Made by a program: the position numbers and the translations under genes. A stretch of 47,039 bases of DNA from a virus: positions 1 to 47,039 of the IMG/VR virus record IMGVR_UViG_3300012929_000027, one strand, 5' to 3'. Below the pieces are notes generated by a model. That model did not search any database, was not told the DNA's origin, and saw nothing but the letters and a program-made list of their open reading frames with translations. This document shows positions 26,187 to 45,520 of this stretch, piece by piece. Each line of letters begins with the position of its first letter. Within the stretch, counting starts at the first letter, position 1.

Positions 26187-26227
26187 AGGCTAAACCAACT
26201 CACCCATAACGTCAACCGACGATTGAC
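26187..26227 (-). promoter_or_regulatory. Operator GTCAA-N7-TTGAC with overlapping promoter (site 1)
   Basis: Plus strand 26211-26227 is GTCAACCGACGATTGAC. The minus-strand reading of the left half provides a -35 TTGACG (26210-26215), followed at 17 bp by TAGCCT (26187-26192). It sits between a terminator-like hairpin and the genes leading into terL. The 17-bp sequence is identical to the site at 45504 and, inverted, to the one at 40535. Confidence 0.7.
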
Positions 26228-26228
26228 C

Positions 26229-26266
26229 AAAGAAAAGCCCTCACTCCATGATGGTGAAGCGAGGGC
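26229..26266 (-). terminator. Rho-independent terminator (minus strand)
   Basis: On the minus strand a nine-pair stem with one G-T pair (GCCCTCGCT / AGTGAGGGC, 26258-26266 with 26237-26245) and a 12-base loop is followed by TTTTCTTT. It ends the transcript of the 96-residue coiled-coil gene. A further hairpin GGGAG-CTTA-CTCCC lies at 26276-26289. Confidence 0.7.
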
Positions 26267-33813: not shown

Positions 33814-33853
33814 ACCATACACGGCCCAAACCGCTAGTCAATGGTTGATTGAC
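33814..33853 (-). promoter_or_regulatory. Operator GTCAA-N7-TTGAC with overlapping promoter (site 2)
   Basis: Plus strand 33837-33853 is GTCAATGGTTGATTGAC; here even six bases of each arm are symmetric. On the minus strand it supplies -35 TTGACT (33836-33841), 16-bp spacer, -10 TATGGT (33814-33819), reading into the 56-residue gene at 33787. The surrounding gap 33788-33932 has no gene. Confidence 0.75.
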
Positions 33854-34001: not shown

Positions 34002-34444
34002 GGCTTCCTCTCCAGCAATTCTGTCGGCACCTTGCATCCAGGCTGGGATGGGGATGGACCATAGGCCAAATTCCAATTATTGGTCTTGGCATAGATTCTC
34101 AGAACGAGCGGCCAATCGATATTGATGGTCTGACAGGGCGCAACGGGAGCGGCGATCGTCTCGAAATATTTCCCATTCAACCAACTCGCTGCGTGATAGG
34201 TGAATCTTTCCTCTTGGCCGCGCACGCTCTTGGCGTAGATTGGTGCAGCTACCATCGCTTGCCGTTGCTCGTCTTCGTCCAGCTTTCGCCATGCCTTGAA
34301 TGCAAGAAATTTGCTTGAATTGAAACGAGGTGGATAGAGTTTCCAGAATTCGAGGAATGTGCCTGTGTATGCGATCTTTGCCGGTAGCTTCTTTTCTTTT
34401 GGTGGTGCGGGCAATTGGAGGTCGAATAGCTGAGCTGATGTCAT
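33998..34444 (-). CDS. Replication accessory protein (primosomal/helicase-loader type C-terminal domain)
   Basis: A 148-residue protein. After a proline-rich N-terminus comes TFLEFWKLYPPRFNSSKFLA then FKAWRKLDEDEQRQAMVAAP and FTYHAASWLNGKYFETI. This is the pattern of a domain in phage replisome organisers and helicase-loader-like proteins (F-FW-YP-K--A--AW--L and H-A-WLN-x-R/KW). It stands directly after the DnaB helicase gene and one zinc-finger gene, which fits a helper that loads the helicase. ATG 34444 is fixed by an ATGA overlap. No ATPase motif, so it is not a DnaC-type AAA+ loader. Confidence 0.7.
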   Translation of the reverse strand: MTSAQLFDLQLPAPPKEKKLPAKIAYTGTFLEFWKLYPPRFNSSKFLAFKAWRKLDEDEQRQAMVAAPIYAKSVRGQEERFTYHAASWLNGKYFETIAAPVAPCQTINIDWPLVLRIYAKTNNWNLAYGPSPSQPGCKVPTELLERKP

Positions 34445-34614
34445 GTGGCGTTCCGTTCGTGATGGTGAACGTTTGGGCAAGTACATTCGGCAATTACCTT
34501 CGCGCATTGCCAGCATTTGCCTTCGGCCTTCCGCTTGGCTTTAATCGCCCTCCAACGATCCTGCGTCTCGCCAAATGTTTCTCGGAATTGACCATCAAAT
34601 CGATCCCAGTCCAT
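34441..34614 (-). CDS. 57-residue zinc-finger protein
   Basis: MDWDRFDGQFRETFGETQDR, then KCWQCAKVIAECTCPNVHHH. Cys pattern C-x2-C-x6-C-x-C followed by three histidines suggests a zinc site. AGGAG lies seven bases before the ATG. The start overlaps the helicase end by 20 nt and the stop overlaps the next gene by ATGA, so it is part of the replication operon. Confidence 0.65.
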   Translation of the reverse strand: MDWDRFDGQFRETFGETQDRWRAIKAKRKAEGKCWQCAKVIAECTCPNVHHHERNAT

Positions 34615-36055
34615 CGTTATCTCCTATTGATTGGGGATATTCTGCGTTCAAATCACGCACTGCGTTCACGGCTGGATTGACGTAAGCTTCCACCATACCG
34701 ACAGGACCGGACCTGTTTTTCTCAATCTGAATGTTGAGCTTGTTCCAGCATTCGATCATGTCGGTTTGCCATTGTTCATATTCTGGCGTGCCCGGCTTTG
34801 GCTCTTTGTTCTGCAAATAATAAGCCTTGCGATACAACATGATGACCAATGATGCGTCTTGTTCAAGCGAGCCTGACTCGCGCAAATCTGCGAGGCTTGG
34901 CCGTTTGTCCTCGCGATTCTCGACACCTCGATTAAGCTGGCATAGCGCGAGCATGGCAACATCTAAATCTTTCGCCAACTTCAAAAGTCCGCTTGATAAT
35001 TCCGAAACTTCGGAGACGCGGTTGCCGCGATATCGATCAGCAACCCCCATCAATTGGAGGTAGTCGACGATGATAAAATCCAGTCCGCCTTTGCGCTTCT
35101 GCTGTCTCGCCTTGGCCCCGACCTGGGCCAAGTTCATTCCGCCTTGCTGTTCGATCTGGAGTGGAAGTTTTGCGAGCGCGAGGCCAGCGCTGGTAAGATA
35201 GCCGAACTCAGTCTCACTGATGACGCCCTTTCTGATCCGCGAGTATGGCACCTCACGCGAACGCGCCTGACCGAAAATCATATCGGACATCAGCCGTTGC
35301 GAAAGCAGGATGTCTCCCATTTCGAGACTAAAAAATATTCCTCGGTATCCGGGATTGAGAACTTCGCCAGTTTGTTCGTCGATATGCTCGGAACAGAGGG
35401 AGCGGCAGAAATTGAGGGCTACCCCGGTTTTCATCATTCCGGGCCTGCCGGCGAGCAATGTCAGCTCCCCCCGATGCAGCCCGCCGGTCTTGATGTCCAA
35501 ATCCCTGAGCCCGTAGGACATGCCTGTAACGGCCCCGTCGTTTTGATATGCCTTGGCAGCTGCATCAACTGCACGCACCACGGAGGCCGCCAAGGTCAGA
35601 GAGGGGCTATCCTGCGTAAATCTAGCGCTAGCGATGGTGTCGATCTGATCTATTGCCCAAGTCGACAATTCGTCCGCATCGGTAGTTTGCGCGATCAATA
35701 TTTCGTTACCGACATTACGAAGCGCACGTATATCTGATAAGTCCCTGATGTTTCTTGCAAAATCACGGCAATTGACGATTGTTGTGCTTTGGGCCGCCAA
35801 TTGGGCAAGATATTGCCCTAGCGTCATGGTACCGATTTTCATGCCGGTTGGCAGGAAGGCTTGCAGTGTGACTGGGCTGGCGACCTTACCAAGGGTGATA
35901 AGCTGGCCCATGGTCTGCCAAATCGTGGTGTGGATAGGCTCGAAGTAGCTTTCAGGCGAGACGATTGATTCGCATAGGCCGTAGACCTGATTGTTAATGA
36001 GGCAAGCGCCTAGGAGTTGCTGCTCCATCGCGATTGAGTGGGGCTCAATCATCAA
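34595..36055 (-). CDS. dnaB: Replicative DNA helicase (DnaB-like)
   Basis: A 486-residue protein. N-terminal domain: EQQLLGACLINNQVYGLCES and the usual helices up to about residue 150. RecA-like domain: YGLRDLDIKTGGLHRGELTL, Walker A GRPGMMKT (203-210), FFSLEM, Walker B DFIIVDYLQLM (326-336), QLNRGVENREDKRPSLADLR (arginine-finger region) and SGSLEQDASLVIMLYR. A SPEYEQWQTD-like insertion follows (residues about 432-445). Oddity: Walker A has Met208 where nearly all P-loops have Gly before the Lys. It would unwind DNA at the fork with the adjacent accessory proteins and the phage clamp; the window shows no DNA polymerase. Confidence 0.9.
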   Translation of the reverse strand: MMIEPHSIAMEQQLLGACLINNQVYGLCESIVSPESYFEPIHTTIWQTMGQLITLGKVASPVTLQAFLPTGMKIGTMTLGQYLAQLAAQSTTIVNCRDFARNIRDLSDIRALRNVGNEILIAQTTDADELSTWAIDQIDTIASARFTQDSPSLTLAASVVRAVDAAAKAYQNDGAVTGMSYGLRDLDIKTGGLHRGELTLLAGRPGMMKTGVALNFCRSLCSEHIDEQTGEVLNPGYRGIFFSLEMGDILLSQRLMSDMIFGQARSREVPYSRIRKGVISETEFGYLTSAGLALAKLPLQIEQQGGMNLAQVGAKARQQKRKGGLDFIIVDYLQLMGVADRYRGNRVSEVSELSSGLLKLAKDLDVAMLALCQLNRGVENREDKRPSLADLRESGSLEQDASLVIMLYRKAYYLQNKEPKPGTPEYEQWQTDMIECWNKLNIQIEKNRSGPVGMVEAYVNPAVNAVRDLNAEYPQSIGDNDGLGSI

Positions 36056-36306
36056 AGAACCTTAGGCAAAGTGATTGGTTTTCGGCTCTTGCCTTGGTTG
36101 ATTTTCTTGCGAGTTCTTTCCTTGTGGGGGATGCCAGCGTCGATCGTGCGCTTAATGGCGTTAAACTGCTCTCGGCTCAGCGTATGATTTCTTGCTGCTC
36201 CTAGGCAAATATAGCCAAAATCGGTTGGACCCTGCACCCTTAGAAGCTTGTTAGCCCATACGGCAGCAAGACCAAATTCATCGTCCGTTAGTTCCATAAC
36301 AGCCAT
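36052..36306 (-). CDS. Hypothetical 84-residue protein upstream of helicase
   Basis: MAVMELTDDEFGLAAVWANK, FGYICLGAARNHTLSREQFN, AIKRTIDAGIPHKERTRKK. Helical, with a basic tail. ATG 36306 has GGGAG nine bases upstream; ATG 36321 and earlier are alternatives. ATGA overlap with the helicase gene. Function unknown, possibly replication-linked. Confidence 0.6.
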   Translation of the reverse strand: MAVMELTDDEFGLAAVWANKLLRVQGPTDFGYICLGAARNHTLSREQFNAIKRTIDAGIPHKERTRKKINQGKSRKPITLPKVL

Positions 36307-36419
36307 TTTCAATTCTCCCATAGTCCGCGTTCCGCAAAGACTGGCCTCCCTACCCTTCCTTGGGTCTGGGCCATGCGGTTGAGCCAACTAGACGGCGCGT
36401 ATCCCCAAGGTACCTTTTA

Positions 36420-36846
36420 GCGAGGGTCAACTCGACTGGCCCGCCACGACACCCGGCGAAAGGTAAATACTATTGCCATAACTTGCCTTGGTTCTTGGAT
36501 GCCCTGCTAGTCCACAAGCACCCACGGACGGAACGGTCCCATCGCTGGGGTAAGAGCCGCGCGCTTTGTCCCCGGACGCTAACCGCCGGGCCGATGGTGC
36601 TGTTTTGGGAGGCTTGCTCAATCGGAACTAAATCCGGGCCGCAGGCTTGGTCGGTTGACGAAACGGCGGTTATGAGCCATATATGCCGTTGCGTTACTCC
36701 AGATTGCCCGCAAAAGCCTATCTGGACCGAAGCCGTCTCTCGTAGCACCACGAGGGCGGCTTCATCATTTGTGGCCCATCTTCATAAAACCGTCAAGAGC
36801 TTAGAGTTTCGCTCGGTTTCTATGGGCGGTATGTGGTGGTGTTCAG
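36420..36846 (-). ncRNA. Candidate structured non-coding RNA or origin region
   Basis: About 430 bp with no convincing gene on either strand, an exception in this genome. It holds a series of local inverted repeats: 36526-36539 (GGAC/GTCC), 36538-36549 (CCCA/TGGG), 36571-36590 (CCCGG/CCGGG), 36662-36690 (AACGGC/GCCGTT), 36698-36726 (TCCAGAT/ATCTGGA, seven pairs) and 36729-36763 (GAAGCCG/CGGCTTC with inner CTCGT/ACGAG). The strand is assumed from its place between two minus-strand genes. No tRNA, rRNA or known ribozyme core was recognised. Alternatives: replication origin, or decayed gene. Confidence 0.45.
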
Positions 36847-36850
36847 CGGT

Positions 36851-37180
36851 CTAGGGGTTGAGGATGCGGTACTCGATTGGAAGCCCAGCCCTTGACGCTG
36901 CCGCAATCCCGTACTCCATGCCCTTTGATATGCCGAGATCGGCATAGACAACGGATGCCTCGGCGACGGCCTTCCAAGCTAACCCCGCGTCGATGCCAAG
37001 CTGCCGCTCAGCGGGATTGGTATCATCAAGGATGCCGCGCTGGGTATAAAGCAGGTGCGAGGCAATCGGAGCTTCACCCCGCTGTATGGCGTCCCTGACA
37101 CATTTGCGGGCATATCTGATGTTGGCCCATCGTTGCAGCCAATTGCCTGCATACGGGGATTCTAAAATAACGCGCCTCAT
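36851..37180 (-). CDS. DUF7768 (deoxyribosyltransferase-like) protein
   Basis: A 109-residue protein. MRRVILESPYAGNW at the start, then ARKCVRDAIQRGEAPIASHL, LYTQRGILDD, ERQLGIDAGLAWK and VVYADLGISKGMEYGI match a family common in phages (DUF7768), related in fold to nucleoside 2-deoxyribosyltransferases and TIR-like nucleotide binders. A nucleotide metabolism or signal-degrading role can be inferred but not proven. ATG 37180 overlaps the stop of a short upstream ORF. Confidence 0.8.
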   Translation of the reverse strand: MRRVILESPYAGNWLQRWANIRYARKCVRDAIQRGEAPIASHLLYTQRGILDDTNPAERQLGIDAGLAWKAVAEASVVYADLGISKGMEYGIAAASRAGLPIEYRILNP

Positions 37181-37241: not shown

Positions 37242-38546
37242 TTAGGGGTTGAGAAGATCAAACAATGATCCTGGCTCAAATGGCAGGGCGTCTCTCCCGA
37301 GTTGTTTCGCCATGTGTCTCTTGCCCTCATCCCGGCCCATGAAGGCGGCTTCTATGCGAGCGCGGGCGAGGATGGCATATTCGGGGTTGAGTTCGATCAG
37401 GGTTGCTGTGCGGCCTAGTGTGGCCGCTACAAGGGCCGTGGTGCCCGCACCGCCGAAGGGATCAAGTATATGCCCGCCTTCTGGACATCCGGCCTTGATG
37501 CAGCGTTCGGCCAATTCCGGCGGGAACGTCGCAAAATGCGCTTCGCTGAATGATTGTGTAGCCATGGGCCAGACAGTGAGCGGCGCAGACTCATAATTCC
37601 GAAGAAGTCGACCGCCTCCGCGCCCCAGTTCATCTAACCCAGTATGGTTGATATGGTCCTGGTGCCGTGGCGTAACCTCGATCATCTTCCCATACTCGCG
37701 TCCGCGACGATGACGCGAACCATGGCCACCACCTCCGGTATCCCAACCGTCGGGCATCTTCACTTTTGTCGGCGCCCTGCGTTGTGCTGCGGGAATGGCT
37801 TCGCCGAGAGAATGACGATTGTGTTCGTTTCCAGTTAACCCAGCGGGGCCATTCTGCTTCCCGGCTTCTGCATCATAATAAGCACCCATTTTAAGCCATC
37901 GCGCTCCGTCTCTGTCCTTGTCCGTAATTAGCGCACAACGCTGATTAAGGTCCGGTTGAAATGATATTTCACCAGTGTCACGCGCCCGCCACACGTTGCC
38001 ATCATTACTCTTGGTCAGCATGAAAACTTTCTCATGCGCAGTTGATGGGCGATAGGCGCCTGAACTGTCCGGCATCGGGTTTGTTTTCCCCCAGATAATC
38101 TCTGAACGAACCCACCAACCAGCCTCTTGCAAGGCAATTGCAAGGCGATTTGGGATCATACATAGATCCTTCGCCTTCATTGTCCCGCCAATTGTCGAGA
38201 GCGGCTTGTCGCGGAACGTGCGGTCGTCATTCCCCGCCAATTTTGTATCCGCCGCGCTACGCCCATTTGGGGCCGTCGCATAGCAATCCCCATAATTCAG
38301 CCAAAACGTCCCGGTAGGCTTTAGAACTCGTTTTACTTCCTCGAAAATCGCCACCATGGTTTCGATGTGCTCGCCTAATGTCGGCTCCAATCCTAGTTGG
38401 CCAGCAACACCATAATCCCGCAACCCCCAATACGGCGGACTCGTTACCACGCAATCAAAATGATCGTCCGGCAACGTCTTGAGCATGGCTCGCACATCAC
38501 CGACAAGCATCGTTACGCGACCATCAAGGAATGTTTCCGCGCTCAC
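37242..38546 (-). CDS. Site-specific DNA methyltransferase (SPPY type, beta class)
   Basis: A 434-residue protein with GTG start overlapping the clamp gene (GTGA). Motif IV TSPPYWG at 35-41 comes first, near the N-terminus; the AdoMet-binding motif DPFGGAGTT follows at about 362-370, then ELNPEYAILARARIE. This order (IV before I) defines the beta class, which includes N4-cytosine and N6-adenine enzymes; SPPY favours N4-cytosine but does not prove it. A long central stretch (about 150-310) would hold the target-recognition region. No restriction endonuclease is adjacent, so it is likely an orphan enzyme protecting phage DNA or marking it. Confidence 0.88.
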   Translation of the reverse strand: MSAETFLDGRVTMLVGDVRAMLKTLPDDHFDCVVTSPPYWGLRDYGVAGQLGLEPTLGEHIETMVAIFEEVKRVLKPTGTFWLNYGDCYATAPNGRSAADTKLAGNDDRTFRDKPLSTIGGTMKAKDLCMIPNRLAIALQEAGWWVRSEIIWGKTNPMPDSSGAYRPSTAHEKVFMLTKSNDGNVWRARDTGEISFQPDLNQRCALITDKDRDGARWLKMGAYYDAEAGKQNGPAGLTGNEHNRHSLGEAIPAAQRRAPTKVKMPDGWDTGGGGHGSRHRRGREYGKMIEVTPRHQDHINHTGLDELGRGGGRLLRNYESAPLTVWPMATQSFSEAHFATFPPELAERCIKAGCPEGGHILDPFGGAGTTALVAATLGRTATLIELNPEYAILARARIEAAFMGRDEGKRHMAKQLGRDALPFEPGSLFDLLNP

Positions 38547-40510: not shown

Positions 40511-40551
40511 ACCATTGCAGATAAAATGGGGCTAGTCAATCGTCGGTTGAC
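40511..40551 (-). promoter_or_regulatory. Operator GTCAA-N7-TTGAC with overlapping promoter (site 3)
   Basis: Plus strand 40535-40551 is GTCAATCGTCGGTTGAC. On the minus strand: -35 TTGACT (40534-40539), 17-bp spacer, -10 AATGGT (40511-40516), reading into the gene at 40483. The operator overlaps the stop codon of the RusA gene, supplying its last residues STDD and TGA. Confidence 0.75.
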
Positions 40552-40901
40552 GATATAGGTGCAATAGTCACCTTGACGCCCTCGTTATTGCCCCAAGCCA
40601 TCGTGACGCGGCGCACGTATGGTTTGGAATCGCCCTGGATTATTTTGTGGGCAACGAGAAGGTCAAGAGTTGCCTTTGTCCGATTATCCAAGTCGGACGC
40701 GTCCGTGGTCTCTGCATCGCTGACCTCAATCAGAATGTCGACGCGCTCTTTGATCGGCTTGATTCGTTGTAGGTTGAGCAGATAGCCGGCGTGTTTCAAC
40801 CATGCTGAATATTGCGCGGTCTTGAAGCGACGGCCGCTCGCCATTTCAGTGGCGAACAAATTATTTGACGTTGGCGGCATCGGCAGATGAATGATTGTCA
40901 T
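40536..40901 (-). CDS. rusA: RusA-like Holliday junction resolvase
   Basis: A 120-residue protein, the typical RusA length. MTIIHLPMPPTSNNLFAT is the usual opening. KPIKERVDILIEVSDAETTD, then ASDLDNRTKATLDLLVAHKI and IQGDSKPYVRRVTMAW carry the conserved acidic cluster (DLDN with the Lys, and the later Asp) that binds metal and cleaves four-way junctions. It would resolve branched DNA before packaging. The last residues STDD plus stop are encoded by the operator palindrome. ATG 40901 overlaps the gene upstream by ATGA. Confidence 0.85.
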   Translation of the reverse strand: MTIIHLPMPPTSNNLFATEMASGRRFKTAQYSAWLKHAGYLLNLQRIKPIKERVDILIEVSDAETTDASDLDNRTKATLDLLVAHKIIQGDSKPYVRRVTMAWGNNEGVKVTIAPISSTDD

Positions 40902-41212
40902 CCGGCCTTGAGCCGTTCGGCGATGTAGTCGATATAAACGCGGCCTATCCATTCACCGGCTAGGACGTATTGACTCTTACGACCAGAGCGGGAATTGCCG
41001 GACTGCAGGCGCCGGATATCTAGACCGTAGAAATCGGTAAGATCCATAATATATTTGCCTCGATTGCCGGGACTCCATTCAATCGGCACACCCTTACTAG
41101 ATTGAAATAGGTCATAAACTTCTCGCAAATGCGTTCCTTCGCGCGGAATATCCTGTGTAGGTGCGCCGCGCTTCGCACGGAGAAAATGACTAACTGACGT
41201 GCATCGCGTCAT
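40898..41212 (-). CDS. Hypothetical protein, possibly winged-helix
   Basis: A 104-residue protein. REGTHLREVYDLFQSSKGVP begins a helix-turn-helix-like part (GTxxREVYDLF, typical of small phage regulators that start with a helix before a wing), then LTDFYGLDIRRLQSGNSRSG and RKSQYVLAGEWIGRVYIDYI. DNA binding is inference from layout. TGATG junction with the Cro-like gene upstream suggests joint expression. Confidence 0.6.
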   Translation of the reverse strand: MTRCTSVSHFLRAKRGAPTQDIPREGTHLREVYDLFQSSKGVPIEWSPGNRGKYIMDLTDFYGLDIRRLQSGNSRSGRKSQYVLAGEWIGRVYIDYIAERLKAG

Positions 41213-41502
41213 CAAGCTGGCTCCCGCCGTGTCCCGTTCTTGTTGTTCCTCGCCCTTGGCCGCTCGTTAGCTGCCACGGCGGCAATCGTCTCCGGCAATA
41301 TGGTCTCCATCGGCACGCCGGATAGCAACGATACCCGATAGGCGTACATCTCGGGGATGACGCCATTCCATTGGGCTACCGCCTGCCTGGAGTATCCCAG
41401 CAATCCAGCCAAGGCCGCTGCCGGGAACCTGTGGCCCTTCTTTTCAAGGGCCGCCATTACAGCCTCATAGCCGTCTCGATTGGTCTTTTTGTGCTTTGCC
41501 AT
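41212..41502 (-). CDS. Cro-like DNA-binding regulator
   Basis: A 96-residue protein. Residues about 12-60 (YEAVMAALEKKGHRFPAAAL, AGLLGYSRQAVAQWNGVIPE, MYAYRVSLLSGVPMETI) form a Cro/C1-type helix-turn-helix: GLLGYSRQAVAQW is the turn and recognition helix. It is the first gene of the leftward operon, immediately beside the divergent control region that holds two GTCAA-N7-TTGAC operators, so it is the best candidate for the protein that binds all six. The C-terminus is a basic tail (RPRARNNKNGTRREPA). The predicted -10 lies only seven bases from the ATG, so the transcript may be nearly leaderless. Confidence 0.8.
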   Translation of the reverse strand: MAKHKKTNRDGYEAVMAALEKKGHRFPAAALAGLLGYSRQAVAQWNGVIPEMYAYRVSLLSGVPMETILPETIAAVAANERPRARNNKNGTRREPA

Positions 41503-41508
41503 GCCGCC

Positions 41509-41595
41509 TTATGGATTATTTTCAAAAATTAGTCAACCGGGCATTGACGGGAGGTTTTGGACGTGCAATGGATGTTGCGTCAATGGTTAGTTGAC
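41509..41595. promoter_or_regulatory. Divergent control region with two operators (sites 4 and 5)
   Basis: Two palindromes 47 bp apart: GTCAACCGGGCATTGAC (41532-41548) and GTCAATGGTTAGTTGAC (41579-41595). Leftward promoter: TTGACT with 17-bp spacer and CATAAG (41509-41514, minus). Rightward promoter: TTGACG (41544-41549), 17-bp spacer, AATGGA (41567-41572), so the second palindrome would cover the rightward transcription start. A single operator half at 41532-41548 serves as -35 for both directions. The layout is that of a phage genetic switch between the leftward and rightward operons. Confidence 0.75.
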
Positions 41596-44878: not shown

Positions 44879-45519
44879 TGGTAAAATATATCGTATGCGA
44901 TACCGAGGGCTCCGGTCTTTTCGATTACAAGCGACCCGCCGACGCCGAAGGCCAGCCACGGCTAGCTGAATTGGTTCTGATCTTCGTTGATGAAGACATG
45001 AATATCGAGCGCGAATATCAGGCATACATCAAGCCAGATGGTTGGATCATGCCGGATGATACTGCGAAGATTCACGGCCTCACGCAAGATATCTTGATGG
45101 AAAAAGGCATTCCGGTCGTCGAAGCTATCGCGGTCTATAATGAGGCCGTCGCGGAAGGTCGTGTGATGGTAGCGCACAATTCCCAACACGATGCGAAACA
45201 GATCAGAGCCGAACTGCGCCGCGCGGGAATGCCAGATCAATTTGAGAGTGCGCCGAATATCTGCACCATGCGGGCGCTGACCGATGTCTGCAAGATTCCT
45301 CCGAACGGCGGGCGAGGTGGCTACAAATGGCCGAAACTTTCTGAGGCTGCTGTGTTTTTTCACTTCGACGAATTCGGTGATCACAGCGCCATGAACGATG
45401 CGCGAGTATGTCTCAAGCTTTTGCGCAAGCTGAAGGAATTGGACGCATTGCCGGAAGCAAAGGTTCATTTGGCGAAAAATCCACCAAAAAAAGAGCCAAT
45501 TGCGTCAACCGACGATTGA
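44878..45519 (+). CDS. DnaQ-like 3'-5' exonuclease (DEDDh)
   Basis: A 213-residue protein. Exo I: IVCDTEGSG with Asp8 and Glu10; KIHGLTQDIL is the conserved loop after the next helix; Exo II: MVAHNSQHDAKQI with the Asp near residue 102; Exo III: DHSAMNDARVCLKLL with His and Asp about residues 165-173. This is the DEDDh pattern. It could supply proofreading or processing ends for RecT. The last residues, STDD, are encoded by the operator at 45504-45520. Single-base overlap with the gene upstream. Confidence 0.88.
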   Translation: MVKYIVCDTEGSGLFDYKRPADAEGQPRLAELVLIFVDEDMNIEREYQAYIKPDGWIMPDDTAKIHGLTQDILMEKGIPVVEAIAVYNEAVAEGRVMVAHNSQHDAKQIRAELRRAGMPDQFESAPNICTMRALTDVCKIPPNGGRGGYKWPKLSEAAVFFHFDEFGDHSAMNDARVCLKLLRKLKELDALPEAKVHLAKNPPKKEPIASTDD

Positions 45520-45520
45520 C
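45504..45520 (+). promoter_or_regulatory. Operator GTCAA-N7-TTGAC (site 6)
   Basis: GTCAACCGACGATTGAC, identical to the site at 26211 and the inverse of 40535. It covers the stop codon of the exonuclease gene. Downstream on the plus strand TTGACT is followed at 17 bp by GGTAGT, a weak -10, leading to the gene at 45570. The promoter is less certain than the palindrome. Confidence 0.65.

Follow-up and report, generated by a model that had tools for sequence, protein, structure and literature searches.

A compact three-hairpin module in the non-coding gap before the dnaB operon of a phage contig, possibly a small antisense-orientation RNA

The OOP RNA of phage lambda (pO-oop-tO) is a small RNA which is transcribed opposite to the early operon, beside the replication genes, and which is ended by a hairpin; OOP RNA and pO act near cII and O (PMC5869508, PMC3985674). 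In P22, sar acts on ant (PMC12197685). The put sites of HK022, which are tandem stem-loops of the phage early region, belong to a sense transcript: they lie near PL/PR and consist of two stems in about 70 nt (PMC9378689). We compare with these systems a gap in a 47-kb phage contig of IMG/VR, the whole of which (47,039 nucleotides) was analysed and is called the window below. Its genes run leftward from about 41.5 kb down, and the gap has the following neighbourhood:

39637-38543, - strand, sliding clamp
38546-37242, - strand, DNA methyltransferase
36851-37180, - strand, DUF7768 / nucleoside deoxyribosyltransferase-like gene (109 aa, named by family searches), upstream of the gap
36307-36850, non-coding interval from the DUF7768 gene to the helicase gene group, with negative codon scores and neither families nor homologues
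36052-36306, - strand, 84-aa gene downstream of the gap, without a family, coding score positive
34595-36055, - strand, DnaB-like replicative helicase (family searches)
34516-33998, - strand, replication initiation protein (family searches)

The 84-aa gene likely starts at 36306 (an ATG with GGGAGA upstream), and a search for its relatives found none. The closest copies of the helicase are alphaproteobacterial, and the host of the phage, judged from them, probably belongs to the alphaproteobacteria. Neither the window nor the second contig (L076, L086) yielded a tyrosine integrase (PF00589). That IMG/VR contig, L076 (3300012930_000019), is 99.99-100% identical to positions 1-34431 of the window, stops matching at 34431 and, on this identity, is essentially the same phage; since it reaches 5.6 kb past the left end of the window without matching the right end, the window probably falls short of the complete phage genome. 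The DUF7768 and methyltransferase genes have identical last 11 bases (TAGGGGTTGAG on the + strand, at 36852-36862 and 37243-37253), so that both proteins terminate in Leu-Asn-Pro; this common gene end may be due to chance or be the trace of a duplicated junction.

The gap is really non-coding. From the start at 36306 to the stop at 36851 about 544 bp are free of genes, which is unusual because neighbouring genes overlap by a few bases. A first-pass annotation of this DNA had reported both facts, with overlaps of 1-4 bases and an unusually large gap without a good gene, and both are borne out. The gap ranks third among free intervals according to a crude coding-score gene call, which missed plausible ORFs in several other free intervals of similar size. 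Both long frames of the gap have negative codon usage (-0.09 bits per codon for a 164-aa frame on the + strand and -0.11 for a 93-aa frame on the - strand, versus +0.06 to +0.27 in called genes). The larger frame pieces gave no family in Pfam and PHROGs, tblastn against phages gave no homologue, and AlphaFold (AF2) returned a pLDDT of 32 for the 164-aa frame and of 35 for the 93-aa frame, in single-sequence models which are weak evidence. On these codon scores, searches and models we rejected a protein gene in the gap: the intact conserved protein which, according to the first-pass annotation, would speak against its proposal appears neither in the codon usage, nor in homologues, nor in the fold.

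The core of the gap is occupied by three hairpins:

36656-36696, + strand, H1, 16 pairs with internal loops (-17.4 kcal/mol, z -3.3)
36698-36726, + strand, H2, with an outer stem of seven perfect pairs (-10.3 kcal/mol, z -3.5)
36729-36763, + strand, H3, a compound hairpin of 14 pairs (-23.5 kcal/mol, z -6.0)

They are spaced by only one or two bases; H1 is an imperfect palindrome AACGGC...GCCGTT which overlaps a promoter-like site (see below), and no 40-nt hairpin of the + strand of the contig is more stable than H3. The 112-nt module which they form (36654-36765) folds on the + strand with -51.2 kcal/mol and a z of -5.7, somewhat flattered by bounds picked after seeing the fold, and 0 of 200 shuffles reach this energy; on the - strand it folds with -45.5 kcal/mol (z -3.9). 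We scanned 7823 windows of 112 nt, comparing folds over the whole contig by regression on composition. By composition-adjusted energy the window at 36655 narrowly comes first on the + strand (-3.93, versus -3.91 and -3.80 for the next ones) and the exact window at 36654 ranks fifth; many antisense windows of the contig come close to this fold once composition is adjusted for. By shuffle z the window at 36655 is clearly first among the tested windows (-5.6 and -6.1, versus -4.4 for the next one on the + strand and -4.9 for the best one on the - strand). The three-hairpin fold is in excess over chance.

The first-pass annotation had stressed six consecutive hairpins. Two of them, the compound hairpin and the seven-pair hairpin, are H3 and H2 and lie exactly where it had placed them, but simple hairpins are as frequent elsewhere, and six in a row are nothing special: when stems with 6 or more pairs are counted (loop of at most 12, G-T pairs included), the gap has 6 and 431 bp of the contig have 5.96 on average; with Watson-Crick pairs only, the gap has 0 such stems. 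The fold of the whole 431-bp gap on the + strand has a z of -2.8 with respect to shuffles and ranks 15 among 312 contig windows of the same size, while that of the - strand is average. The three hairpins matter and the remaining ones are background. The observation is sound but its emphasis is wrong: the gap contains one compact three-hairpin module, which is neither a row of six hairpins nor an origin.

The three G-U pairs of the fold all belong to the + strand reading and are A-C mismatches on the - strand. Together with the higher stability they favour a + strand RNA, which is a lean and not a proof. The features which bear on the transcription of such an RNA are the following:

36654-36682, + strand, promoter-like site GTTGAC-N17-CCATAT, the best such match in the gap
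36650-36661, + strand, GTCGGTTGACGA, half of a dispersed palindrome of the phage, identical to 40542-40553
36689-36772, + strand, inferred small RNA made of H2 and H3, with putative ends, about 84 nt, fold z -4.8
26211-26227, 33837-33853, 40535-40551, 41532-41548, 41579-41595 and 45504-45520, copies of the palindrome

The promoter-like site agrees at 10 of 12 positions with what we take to be an alphaproteobacterial-type consensus; there are 50 sites with at least 9 of 12 on the + strand, about one per kb, and the site of the gap is not above this background. It overlaps GTCGGTTGACGA, which is part of the palindrome GTCAA-N7-TTGAC, and the gap holds this half-site only. The palindrome itself has six exact copies in the window versus about 0.05 expected (ten fixed bases, simple base frequency), two of which lie between a P22-Cro-like gene (41212-41502, - strand) and the rightward genes. 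These palindromes resemble operators, dispersed over the contig and overlapping TTGAC -35-like elements, to which a repressor or Cro of the phage itself would bind.

The tail of H3, ATCATTTGT, is weak and U-containing, and its terminator-like score is negative (rank 15 of 980), versus +23.5 for a genuine-looking leftward terminator at 26237-26266. The latter reads GCCCTCGCTT...AGTGAGGGC then TTTTCTTT and ends at 26237; no other strong intrinsic terminator was found in the contig. At 26211-26266 this terminator and an operator-like palindrome follow each other within a few bases, upstream of the terminase gene, in what is likely the boundary between early and late transcription.

We tentatively prefer, at well short of an even chance, to see in the module a small antisense-orientation phage RNA of the intercistronic region ahead of the dnaB operon. 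On this reading a small structured RNA would be encoded by the core of the gap and read rightward, against the direction of the genes: RNA polymerase, using the promoter-like site which overlaps H1, would begin near 36689, and the transcript would consist of H2 and H3 and end just past H3. We infer its target from complementarity: because the small RNA would be complementary to the intercistronic part of the message which runs from the deoxyribosyltransferase-like gene to the helicase gene, it would pair with this message, and the pairing may set the expression level of the helicase segment, through cleavage by RNase III or through transcriptional collision. The promoter-like site is suitably placed and directed, and it shares sequence with the operator-like palindromes of the phage; against the proposal stand the background level of this site, the weak terminator tail and the lack of a homologue. 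No significant pairing in trans was found in the start regions of the phage. Between the stretch following H3 and the start of gene 45570 the pairing energy is -24.4 kcal/mol, a value matched by 29% of random contig 25-mers, and this target was discarded.

As for OOP, the proposed RNA would lie beside replication genes and on the opposite strand, since the gap precedes the helicase gene group and the + strand fold is favoured. However, OOP overlaps cII by 52 bases, whereas H3 ends at 36763, 88 bp short of the stop at 36851, and there is no sequence match. OOP has its own promoter, whereas in the gap the promoter is not mapped and the promoter-like match is at background level only; compared with the OOP terminator, H3 has a strong stem but a weak tail, with the negative score given above.

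Searches of the gap against the Rfam 15 families and for tRNA and tmRNA (ARAGORN) gave no match at the gathering score, in agreement with the first-pass annotation, which had recognised no known RNA. With relaxed thresholds, the top sub-threshold match in Rfam is sar (RF00262), over its full length and on the same strand. The likeness lies in a pair of adjoining hairpins (about 70 nt) which are antisense within a phage operon, and in common stem letters (ACCGAAGCC...GGCUUCA); however, the match has 16.1 bits (E 0.59) versus a gathering score of 43, and the RNA of the gap is not a member of this family. DNA homologous to the gap is absent from the phages, plasmids, fetched loci and 385 sampled genomes searched, the latter from the class to which the closest helicase hit belongs; the H3 pattern had no match across IMG/VR, and none of the relatives reached via the helicase, clamp, methyltransferase, terminase, DUF7768 and 84-aa genes has the gap. 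A covariance model built from the single gap sequence was run on 40 loci and on samples of 397 and 385 genomes: its sole match, weak (27.5 bits, in L248) and located beside a gene which we read as sdhB-like iron-sulphur, was taken as chance.

Among the other explanations, which we rank in the order given here, the first is that the leftward message carries a cis-acting RNA element, which would be a processing site, a stabiliser of the message end, or a weak or factor-dependent terminator or antiterminator. The - strand fold is strong too (z -3.9), and the hairpins are found 88-195 nt past a stop codon, ahead of the next gene group. HK022 put also consists of tandem stem-loops, in the early region of that phage, but the module of the gap folds better on the other strand, where it is more stable and carries the G-U pairs, no T-run follows the stem on the - strand, and the module, unlike the put sites (PMC9378689), is remote from the presumed early promoter, which lies near 41.5 kb, at a distance of 4.7 kb. 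We hold such an element to be rather doubtful. It is unlikely that the gap is a passive spacer, with a local fold due to chance in former or drifting sequence: the average number of hairpins, the rank of the whole-gap fold (15 of 312), the composition-adjusted antisense windows of the contig which fold nearly as well and the failure to find conservation are all in keeping with a spacer, but a z of -5.7 with 0 of 200 shuffles as low, and three adjoining stems in a compact genome, are not.

A DNA-level replication element, in which tandem hairpins of single-stranded DNA beside the helicase gene would be the place where a primosome is loaded or synthesis is primed, is very unlikely. As DNA, either strand also forms H1-H3 (z -5.1 and -4.6), and the adjoining genes are those of a helicase and of a replication initiation protein; yet the gap has no iterons or clustered repeats, no DnaA boxes (the whole window has 16 matches versus 26 expected), a GC content of 0.573 versus a contig mean of 0.537, hence no AT-richness, and no turn of the GC skew, whose minimum is near 41-42 kb. 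We rejected the gap as a replication origin on these grounds, so that, of the non-coding RNA or replication element first suggested, the non-coding status and a structured core stand while the origin does not. Least probable of all is an orphan or decayed protein gene, such as the 164-aa + strand frame at 36360-36854, which stays open from one end of the gap to the other and stops 4 bp inside the next gene but has a TTG start, -0.09 bits per codon, no homologue and a pLDDT of 32.

Returning to the small antisense-orientation RNA, we consider it decidedly improbable that the three-hairpin module represents the first case of a phage RNA family not described so far, one which controls the expression of the adjacent DnaB operon or replication by it. 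If it is not transcribed, the module is just a structured spacer. If it is transcribed, it adds another phage small RNA beside replication genes, probably in an alphaproteobacterial phage, and supports the view that replication genes are repeatedly placed under antisense control beyond the lambdoid phages; were this true, screening orphan phages for gaps with a fold would catch RNAs which are missed by homology searches.
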